Under the pieces are notes generated by a model. It had not been told where the DNA came from and ran no database searches. It was given only the letters and a program-made list of their open reading frames with translations. DNA of 33,926 bases. Source: Erysipelotrichaceae bacterium. Its GTDB lineage: Bacteria; Bacillota_I; Bacilli_A; Erysipelotrichales; Erysipelotrichaceae. The position numbers and the translations under genes were made by a program. The stretch is taken from positions 1 to 33,926 of the forward strand of contig SVBJ01000021.1 in assembly GCA_015058955.1 (NCBI GenBank), given 5' to 3'. Below, piece after piece: positions 24,114 to 26,977 of this stretch (position 1 is the stretch's first letter; every line of letters starts with the position of its first letter).

Positions 24114-24674
24114 CTATTTCCTTTCCTTAAGCGCATTTACGTACTCGTAGGCCTGCTTCAAAGCCTGCTGATATTCTTCGCTGTCCCTGTTAAGGCAGCC
24201 GAATTCGTTTACCTGGAACTTCAGTGAACTGAACTGCGGATGTCTGAGTAATAACTGTACACAGACATCTGATCCGTCCTTATTCAGATACTTTCTTTCC
24301 ACGATGCGGACTTTTCTGATCTCATTGATGTTGAGTAAATCAGCGTTGTCCTGAACATAGTCTGAACGCTTACTGATGAGGAAGTCCTTGCTTTCATCAT
24401 CAATGAACAGACTGTATTTGCCGTCGACGACTTTGCTGCCCTTGAACTCGGCGAGCTTTTCCCGGTTTTCCTGACGGTAAGCCAGGTGTTCCCTGATCTG
24501 CTCTACGGTCATTTCGGCAAAGTCAGCGTCTTCAAGCCATTCAGAAGCGAGCTTGGCACAGTTGCGGCACAGCATACCGTCTTTAAGTACCTTGCTGCCG
24601 AATCTTGTCAGCTTGTTGCCACAGACAGAACAGTTTTCCTGTAAACCGTTCTCCCGTAACAGGATCTTTTCCAT
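24114..24674 (-). CDS. DUF4428 zinc-finger protein
   Basis: This 186-residue protein opens with a DUF4428-like zinc finger: CSVCGNKLTRFGSKVLKDG followed by LCRNC, giving C15-x2-C18 and C36-x2-C39. The next 140 residues are mixed helix and strand without a known domain; they recall the C-terminal SHOCT/PH-like tails of some DUF4428 proteins. It is cytoplasmic. Strong AAGGAGG ribosome site. It is the first gene of the operon that ends with the C11 peptidase. Confidence 0.82.
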   Translation of the reverse strand: MEKILLRENGLQENCSVCGNKLTRFGSKVLKDGMLCRNCAKLASEWLEDADFAEMTVEQIREHLAYRQENREKLAEFKGSKVVDGKYSLFIDDESKDFLISKRSDYVQDNADLLNINEIRKVRIVERKYLNKDGSDVCVQLLLRHPQFSSLKFQVNEFGCLNRDSEEYQQALKQAYEYVNALKERK

Positions 24675-24768: not shown

Positions 24769-24799
24769 AAAAAAGCCATCTGCAATACACAAATGGCTT
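24769..24799 (-). terminator. Terminator of deoC
   Basis: Minus strand: AAGCCATTTG (24799-24790), 7-base loop, CAGATGGCTT (24782-24773) with one mismatch, then T-run. Confidence 0.8.
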
Positions 24800-24824
24800 C
24801 GTTTATCCTTACTTAAGCAAGCCT

Positions 24825-25484
24825 TTATTTTGCTGCTTCGTAATCCTCCATTATCTTCTTGCCGGCACTGCAGCCTAATCTCTCAGCACCAGCCTCTATC
24901 ATCTTCTGAGCATCAGCTAAGCTTCTGATGCCGCCTGCTGCCTTTACCTTTAATCCGGCCTGGTGTACTGTATCATACATCAGCTTGACATCCTCAGGTG
25001 TTGCTCCCCCTGTTGAGAATCCCGTTGAAGTCTTGACGAAAGTTGCTCCCGCATGGATAGAACATCTGCAGGCTTCTACCTTTTCTTCATCTGTCAGTAA
25101 GCAGGTCTCAATGATCACCTTCACGGTCTTGCCATTGGCTGCCTTTACCACTGCGGCGATGTCATCGGTTACATAGTCGATGTTTCCGCCCTTTAAGGCT
25201 CCTACATTGATAACTGTATCGAATTCATCAGCCCCATCTGCCAAAGCTTCCTTTACTTCATACGCCTTGGCTACCGGATTCATGGCTCCTAATGGGAAAC
25301 CTATTACCGTACATACCTTGACATCAGTGCCTTCCAGTTCCTTCTTGCAGGTAGCTACCCAGCAGCTGTTGACGCATACTGAGGCAAAGTCATATTCCCT
25401 GGCTTCCTGGCACAGCTTGACGATCTGTTCTCTGGTGGCATCTGCCTTTAACAATGTGTGATCGATGTATTTATTCAATTTCAT
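24825..25484 (-). CDS. deoC: Deoxyribose-phosphate aldolase
   Basis: This 219-residue protein matches DeoC along its whole length: [11 protein letters not shown] (7-17), VIGFPLGA (60-67), [12 protein letters not shown] (87-98) with the general-acid Asp, FVKTSTGF with the Schiff-base Lys151, and VKAAGGIR with Lys181. It splits 2-deoxyribose 5-phosphate into glyceraldehyde 3-phosphate and acetaldehyde in deoxynucleoside breakdown. No deoA/deoD/deoB is nearby. Ribosome site GGGAGGA. It has its own promoter, whose spacer is filled by a CsoR/FrmR-type palindrome (25513-25541), although it lies only 68 bases behind the epimerase gene on the same strand. Confidence 0.97.
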
Positions 25485-25512
25485 AATTTATCCTCCCTTG
25501 ATTTACGTAATC

Positions 25513-25541
25513 AGTATACCCCTAGGGGGTATAATAGTCAA
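25513..25541 (-). promoter_or_regulatory. deoC promoter with CsoR/FrmR-type operator in the spacer
   Basis: Minus strand: -35 TTGACT (25541-25536), exactly 17 bases, -10 TATACT (25518-25513). The palindrome TATACCCCTAGGGGGTATA (25515-25533 on the plus strand; two 8-bp arms around TAG) fills the spacer and overlaps the -10. A/T-C4-5-G4-5-A/T palindromes like this are typical sites of the CsoR/CstR/FrmR/RcnR repressors. No such regulator gene lies in the window. Confidence 0.7.
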
Positions 25542-25552
25542 CATGTTTTAAA

Positions 25553-26227
25553 CTATTTGACAGCGTCTATTTCCTTTTTATAGGCATAGTACAGTTCTTC
25601 AAATCTGTCCGGTCCCTTCATCAGGGTGCTTGGCCCAACGATCAGTACGTCAGCACCGTTAAGGTACATCTGCTTGGCGTTATCGATGACGGTATTTCCG
25701 TCAATCAGGATCGGTATGTGTCTGTCACTGTGCTCATCAAGGAACTGACGCATTCTCTTTATCTTGTCCATTCCTCCCGGAACTATCTTCTGACCGCCGA
25801 AACCAGGATTAATGGTCATGTCCAGAATGAAGTCAGTTTCTATCAGCAGTTCTTCAATGTAGTGCAGTGACATTCCCGGTATTACAGCCAGACCGGCGGT
25901 TATACCTTTGCTGTGAAGGGCCTGCAGCAGTTTGAAGGCATGCTGTGAGGTTTCCGGATGGAATGCCACACGGTCCCCGGGCTGAACATCAAACATTTCA
26001 ATGTAATCCTCGGGATTGGTTACCATCAGATGGATGTCGATTGGAAGGTTAGTAATTCTCTTGATGTCCTTGTACTGCTGAGTACCCAGGGCACTGTTTT
26101 TAACATAATGTCCGTCCATGATGTCAAAGTGGATGAAAGGGCAGCCAACTTTCTCAGCCAGCTTGCAGTAATCATAGAATTCCTCAACTTTGGCACACAT
26201 TATTGAAGGTGATATCTGTATTGGCAT
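25553..26227 (-). CDS. Ribulose-phosphate 3-epimerase family (AlsE-like) protein
   Basis: This 224-residue TIM barrel belongs to the RPE family: SPSIMC (6-11), FIHFDIMDGHYVKN (31-44), DIHLMV (64-69), MTINPGFGGQK (about 137-147) and ILIDGN (about 173-178), so the metal ligands and catalytic aspartates are kept. RPE normally has VDGG; IDGN with the following NGADVLIVGPSTL is closer to D-allulose-6-phosphate 3-epimerase (AlsE). It would epimerise C3 of a pentulose or hexulose phosphate. Ribosome site AAGGAGA. A terminator-like hairpin lies between it and the aldolase gene upstream, so it depends on readthrough. Confidence 0.85.
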   Translation of the reverse strand: MPIQISPSIMCAKVEEFYDYCKLAEKVGCPFIHFDIMDGHYVKNSALGTQQYKDIKRITNLPIDIHLMVTNPEDYIEMFDVQPGDRVAFHPETSQHAFKLLQALHSKGITAGLAVIPGMSLHYIEELLIETDFILDMTINPGFGGQKIVPGGMDKIKRMRQFLDEHSDRHIPILIDGNTVIDNAKQMYLNGADVLIVGPSTLMKGPDRFEELYYAYKKEIDAVK

Positions 26228-26287: not shown

Positions 26288-26977
26288 TTATCTCTTGGCG
26301 TTTAAAAGAGTAGCGCCTTCACCGTACATTGATTCCCAGTCCTTGGTGAAGTTTTCAATGGCCTTGTTGACGTTCTCGTTACCGAAGGTAGCCATCATCA
26401 TGTCAAGCGGAGCAGTAATGGCTTCGCAGCCGTTGGTGTAGGCTTCTCTTAACTGGCCTGCTGTATGGAAGCTGGCAGCAACTAACTTTGTAGGAAGTCC
26501 TTCGCGTTCGATCTTGTTCTGAACATCCTGATACAGCAGGTTAGGGTCAACACCATATGTGGTCATGCGGTTGGCATAAATGGCGATGTAGTCAGCACCG
26601 GCTGCCAGAGCATAGTAAGCCTGCATGGTATCATAGACGCCTGTTGCGGTTACGTTGTAGCCTTCCTTTTTCAGTCTGATGATGGTCTTCAGACCTTCCT
26701 TGGTAACAGGAACCTTGATGTAGACGTCTTCATCAACGTTTTCAACAAGAGCTTTGGCTTCCTTCATCATTGTGTCGCTGTCAGTGGCAACTACCTGAAC
26801 ATGCAGGGTACGTTCCTTGCCGATGATCTCTCTGATCTTTCTTACATGTGCAAAGAAATCGTCAGGATTGGCACTTTTCTTTACGATTGAAGGGTTGCAG
26901 GTTACTCCGGCGATTGGGAAATATTCGCAGGCAGTAGCAATGTCTTTTAAATTCGCGGTATCGACTAATAATTCCAT
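26288..26977 (-). CDS. Fructose-6-phosphate aldolase / transaldolase-like protein
   Basis: This 229-residue protein follows the short transaldolase/FSA subfamily: MELLVDTANL, PIAGVTCNPSIV (21-32), VYIKVPVTKEGL with the Schiff-base Lys88, the YANRM loop (about 138-142), VAASFHTAGQL (about 171-181) and GCEAITAPLD. E. coli FSA is 220 residues and has FKT where this has FHT. It either cleaves fructose 6-phosphate to dihydroxyacetone and glyceraldehyde 3-phosphate or transfers dihydroxyacetone as a transaldolase; sequence alone does not decide. Ribosome site CAGGAGG. It starts 19 bases after the membrane-anchored protein and is divergent from the PTS operon. Confidence 0.9.
   Translation of the reverse strand: MELLVDTANLKDIATACEYFPIAGVTCNPSIVKKSANPDDFFAHVRKIREIIGKERTLHVQVVATDSDTMMKEAKALVENVDEDVYIKVPVTKEGLKTIIRLKKEGYNVTATGVYDTMQAYYALAAGADYIAIYANRMTTYGVDPNLLYQDVQNKIEREGLPTKLVAASFHTAGQLREAYTNGCEAITAPLDMMMATFGNENVNKAIENFTKDWESMYGEGATLLNAKR

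Follow-up and report, generated by a model that had tools for sequence, protein, structure and literature searches.

A deoxyribose-phosphate aldolase gene (deoC) was found to be preceded by a promoter whose spacer is filled by a palindrome. This palindrome most likely represents a real and conserved CsoR-type operator, which would make deoC copper-inducible in one small lineage. We assign a probability of approximately 0.7 to the view that it is a CsoR operator and that deoC responds to copper; CsoR binding, repression by occlusion of the promoter, and induction by copper are what we infer here from sequence. In the following, the window is the whole stretch of DNA that was analyzed (33,926 nucleotides). 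It belongs to genome G000, which is of the Erysipelotrichaceae type, and G001–G008 are the other genomes of its genus (nine in all).

A Putative CsoR Operator in the deoC Promoter

The features relevant to this analysis are all on the minus strand of the window:

24772..24800 (-): predicted intrinsic terminator directly after deoC (z -4.81)
24825..25484 (-): deoC, deoxyribose-phosphate aldolase, 219 amino acids (TIGR00126, PF01791)
25492..25497 (-): ribosome binding site of deoC, GGGAGG, read from sequence
25513..25518 (-): -10 element TATACT, overlapped by the palindrome (promoter match)
25515..25533 (-): putative CsoR type-2 operator palindrome TATACCCCCTAGGGGTATA, TAC-N9-GTA core at 25517-25531 (sequence match to the consensus in PMC3902906)
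25536..25541 (-): -35 element TTGACT (promoter match)
25553..26227 (-): rpe, ribulose-phosphate 3-epimerase, upstream of deoC, with synteny kept in G001 and G008 (profile matches and synteny)
26288..26977 (-): gene of the transaldolase/fructose-6-phosphate aldolase family, upstream of rpe (profile matches)

The identity of deoC is supported by a TIGR00126 score of 280.5 bits (cut-off 117.3), and the closest named relative of its product is found in MAG RGIG2297 from goat duodenum (91% identity). Since deoC has its own ribosome binding site and terminator, the promoter should give a single-gene transcript, although some read-through from the upstream rpe is conceivable. Just past the deoC terminator, the window also encodes a DUF4428 protein with a zinc-ribbon-like N-terminus (24114-24674, minus strand).

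The deoC promoter, TTGACT-17-TATACT, has 10 of 12 promoter matches. Its 17-nt spacer is filled by TATACCCCCTAGGGGTATA, which also overlaps the -10 element; re-reading of the sequence showed that both the coordinates and the spacer length given in the original prediction were correct. The site thus has two features of CsoR-controlled promoters, an operator overlapping the core promoter and a TAC-N9-GTA type-2 palindrome with G/C tracts. Allowing three mismatches or fewer, TATACCCCCTAGGGGTATA matched one place in the 33.9-kb window (both strands) versus none in 100 dinucleotide shuffles. The single place matched in the 1.78-Mb genome G000 was again that at deoC, with no further copy at this threshold.

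According to PMC3902906, the consensus of Streptomyces CsoR is ATATACCCCTNAGGGGTATAT, and S. aureus, Listeria, and B. subtilis sites share a TAC-N9-GTA dyad with it. The type-2 operators of copZA/csoR systems (Streptomyces lividans and the three organisms above) resemble the deoC site in this dyad, the two G/C tracts, the AT-rich outer arms, and the position in the promoter. However, those systems control genes for copper efflux, chaperones, or storage, whereas here the target is a central-metabolism aldolase and binding is predicted.

Within the genus, the palindrome is present at deoC in three of the nine genomes (G000, G001, and G008). The best-kept parts of their intergenic regions are the palindrome-bearing promoter and the ribosome binding site. 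The center of the palindrome varies among the three promoters, while its symmetric arms are constant; the spacing is N9 in G000 and G001 and N8 (TAC-N8-GTA) in G008.

Association of the Palindrome with Copper Genes

We searched 272 genomes of the same family with the pattern ATACCCC-N1..4-GGGGTAT. The pattern was detected in 78 of them, and a backward-read control pattern in none. Altogether 96 sites were counted, and the surroundings of 95 were examined (one 18-bp copy in G258 was left out). The next genes were as follows, with tandem sites in one promoter counted separately and one large genus (g7) dominating, so that the numbers are sites and not independent events:

All sites (95): csoR 69, copA 7, HMA/CueP 4, deoC 3, rhodanese 2, other 10
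17-bp copies, N9 (81): csoR 65, copA 7, HMA/CueP 4, deoC 2, other 3
16-bp copies, N8 (11): csoR 4, rhodanese 2, deoC 1, other 4
15-bp copies (2) and 18-bp copy (1): all other

The csoR, copA, rhodanese, and deoC labels were assigned by BLASTP against sequences of this analysis (E <= 1e-4), and those of HMA/CueP and the G008 deoC by hand; the CueP label is backed by Pfam for one site. Copper genes (csoR, copA, and HMA/CueP) lie downstream of 76 of the 81 17-bp copies. The assignment of the palindrome to the CsoR family is therefore upheld, both by the fit of TAC-N9-GTA to the type-2 consensus and by the same palindrome marking copper genes across the family. Related palindromes are also found at rhodanese genes in this family, a point of similarity to the CstR persulfide regulon, but these are TAC-N8-GTA rather than the N9 of the window; this suggests that spacing may separate persulfide (CstR, N8) from copper (CsoR) sites.

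The placement of the palindromes in promoters was also analyzed. At 55 of 87 oriented sites (deoC, 3 of 3; copA, 5 of 7), the palindrome lies inside the 16–18-nt spacer of a sigma-70-like promoter, compared with 1, 0, 4, 1, 0, and 0 of 87 for six shifted-position controls. Here the start of the -10 element was free to vary between 1 nt before and 4 nt after the register, with equal freedom for the controls; a stricter promoter-register version gave 11 of 87. In G003, a member of the same genus, the copA palindrome is located within TTGAAA-17-TATACT, the same layout as at the window deoC.

The CsoR Gene and the copA Promoters of the Genus

Because the form of the operator alone leaves FrmR possible, the case for CsoR rests on the regulator gene and on the family-wide gene association. 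One CsoR-family gene (PF02583, DUF156) was detected in G000 (95% complete, 4.45% contamination). It begins at the end of copA, whose product is a copper ATPase of 845 amino acids carrying HMA domains at both ends. The best solved relative of this CsoR is 4m1p, a CsoR which we take to be from Geobacillus, and the two proteins align at the positions of the ligands (Y-C, His, and Cys). Multiple alignment of five CsoR sequences of the genus (G000, G001, G002, G003, and G005; that of G006 was left out) revealed that all of them have kept these positions. A copper-type CsoR with Cys-His-Cys ligands is thus encoded in the same genome as the deoC site. Similarly, one CsoR-family gene accompanies the deoC palindrome in G001 (97% complete); csoR was not found in G008, a 68%-complete genome.

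The palindrome does not precede the copA/csoR genes of G000 itself, a usual although not strictly defining feature of CsoR systems; copA of G003 does have it. Just upstream of copA in five of the nine genus genomes (G000, G001, G002, G005, and G006), it is replaced by an asymmetric sequence, ATAGGGTNNGGGGGTATA, which occurs once per genome and is arranged as TAG/GTA, its G runs all lying on the same strand. The G000 site is ATAGGGTGTGGGGGTATA (C24:21441-21458; L201, L004), and the others are L202, L203, L204, and L205. It is possible that ATAGGGTNNGGGGGTATA is an altered CsoR operator, and the resident CsoR may prefer a site other than the palindrome. Tan et al. found that a change in the GTA dyad abolishes binding by Streptomyces CsoR (PMC3902906), implying that the CsoR of this genus either tolerates asymmetric sites or has changed its preference. 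With an asymmetric site at copA and a palindromic one at deoC, it is the deoC palindrome, rather than the genome's own copA site, that more closely resembles the family CsoR operator. Our confidence in the CsoR reading was lowered to the value given above because copA carries the asymmetric site.

The same evidence bears on the idea that the deoC promoter is a captured relic, in which the palindrome was acquired as part of a copper promoter and control was lost as the CsoR of the lineage shifted to the asymmetric copA site. Both the asymmetric sites in five genomes and the single palindrome of G000 are consistent with such a history. However, the palindrome promoter and ribosome binding site being the best conserved intergenic parts in G000, G001, and G008, with arms kept while the center differs, argues for continued use of the site, and we consider a loss of control unlikely.

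Alternative Regulators

In the original prediction, an FrmR-like aldehyde sensor at deoC was considered attractive. This was dropped as the best reading, as no such gene was found in G000, whose only PF02583 gene follows copA, has the Cys-His-Cys ligands, and aligns best with the presumed Geobacillus CsoR. The NCBIfam models of RicR, RcnR, and FrmR all scored below their cut-offs on this protein (FrmR, 39.3 bits versus 133). In FrmR, Glu replaces the second Cys ligand of CsoR, a position occupied by Cys in the sole PF02583 protein of G000, and no FrmR- or RcnR-type gene was found in this genome. CstR is devoid of the His ligand, which the G000 protein retains, and a CstR gene with persulfide-handling genes was likewise not found in G000. 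Of the three kinds of homologs to be sought in the genome, CsoR was thus recovered while FrmR and CstR were not.

A second sensor could be absent from the G000 assembly, and a CstR-like persulfide sensor or an FrmR-like aldehyde sensor missed in this way might control deoC. Among the type-1 systems (FrmR and RcnR, responding to formaldehyde and nickel/cobalt), E. coli FrmR has sites of a similar ATAC-9-GTAT form; palindromes with N8 occur at rhodanese genes of the family, and the G008 deoC site is N8; moreover, DeoC chemistry involves acetaldehyde. On the other hand, FrmR sites are tandem, unlike the window site, no second PF02583 gene was found in G000 or G001 at their completeness of 95% and 97%, and the sites of both genomes belong to the N9 class, 76 of whose 81 family copies mark copper genes. 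A missing sensor therefore appears quite improbable. Use of the site by an unrelated factor, such as a MerR-type activator, is highly improbable: MerR-type operators also fill promoter spacers, but these are usually 19–20 nt instead of the ideal 17 seen here, and the site fits the CsoR consensus and is associated in the family with csoR/copA.

Distribution and Possible Origin of the Operator-Bearing deoC

Conservation of the site upstream of deoC in relatives, another point of the original prediction, held for G001 and G008 but not for G002, G003, G004, and G007, whose close deoC genes (70–79% identical) showed no such site in the flanking sequence retrieved. G005 and G006 have only distant relatives of DeoC, and the site is missing from these too. 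A composite pattern (palindrome, 36–66 nt, and IDHT codons) matched one of 395 genomes of the class and one of 392 of the phylum, G000 in both cases; these samples overlap, and G001 and G008 are in neither.

In G002, G003, and G004, deoC is located after a murE-like gene. A second deoC of G000 (C21:5609-6256; L130) overlaps the end of a murE-like gene and has no operator, and the two G000 copies share 97.1% DNA identity over 658 bp. In G001, murE runs straight into the lipoprotein gene that in G000 follows deoC; this junction indicates that deoC is missing there and that the sole close deoC of G001 is the operator-bearing copy. G001 also has more distant DeoC paralogs (35–41%). Comparison of these loci suggests that deoC may have moved from the murE-deoC locus to a copper promoter, and that the presence of both copies in G000 may reflect gene conversion or a duplication of recent date. 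There is a small residual chance that the two G000 copies stem from a mixed assembly (4.45% contamination).

Proposed Mechanism and Metabolic Role

Under CsoR control, apo-CsoR tetramers would cover the DNA that separates the -35 box from the -10 box, blocking RNA polymerase. On binding Cu(I) at its Cys-His-Cys site, CsoR would be released from the deoC promoter, and a short single-gene deoC mRNA would then be made, from the promoter to the terminator behind deoC. This follows the general mechanism outlined in PMC9470648, in which apo-CsoR blocks the promoter and Cu(I) releases it.

CsoR regulons are usually small and confined to copper handling. In S. aureus, only copAZ and copBL were shown to be CsoR-responsive in strain LAC (PMC10249872), and a CsoR site was undetectable at gapA (PMC6350627), though copper disturbs both glycolysis and the pentose phosphate pathway in this species. 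CsoR control of deoC was not reported in the literature searched, most subscription papers being outside it; in the papers examined for CsoR together with deoC, the matches were chance strings (Deochand, deocclusion, and Csordas) or came from an unrelated carbon-source context.

DeoC connects the pools of glyceraldehyde-3-phosphate and deoxyribose-5-phosphate. The purpose of copper control might lie in this link between glyceraldehyde-3-phosphate plus acetaldehyde and deoxyribose-5-phosphate, at a point where copper inhibits GAPDH (PMC6350627) and PRPP synthetase (PMC10249872) in S. aureus. A rather unlikely extension is that copper induces DeoC as a metabolic bypass. In this scenario, DeoC would work in the condensing direction when GAPDH and PRPP synthesis are blocked, consuming glyceraldehyde-3-phosphate and acetaldehyde and yielding the deoxyribose-5-phosphate needed for deoxynucleosides without recourse to PRPP or ribonucleotide reductase, and deoC would have moved from the murE locus for this use. 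If so, a metal sensor would rewire central carbon and DNA-precursor metabolism.

With regard to CsoR control itself, a DeoC gene under the switch of a copper pump suggests that copper stress might directly re-route sugar or DNA-precursor metabolism in a small number of gut bacteria belonging to a single genus. If true, such a direct CsoR target would mean that carbon metabolism can be placed under a copper sensor, and it would offer a testable explanation of how anaerobes of the gut tolerate copper, as in livestock fed copper supplements.

Other Palindromes in the Family

Several 16-bp palindromes with N8 spacing (L011, L183, L184, L185, L191, and L192) were found at genes for rhodanese, thioredoxin-reductase-like, disulfide-reductase-like, and small membrane proteins, the non-rhodanese names being assigned by eye.

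Two genomes of genus g28 (L189:1085 and L190:1028) have a CsoR-like palindrome in the promoter spacer of a gene for a small lipoprotein, which gave no Pfam hit for the piece that was searched and is a candidate new copper protein. Control of transketolase at these loci, an apparent parallel in the pentose pathway, was rejected: the promoter, TTGCAA-17-TATAAT, faces the other way, into the lipoprotein gene.

In genus g56 (L158, L163, L166, and L165), palindromes are located before short HMA-domain genes followed by genes for secreted CueP-like proteins, or before CueP itself.
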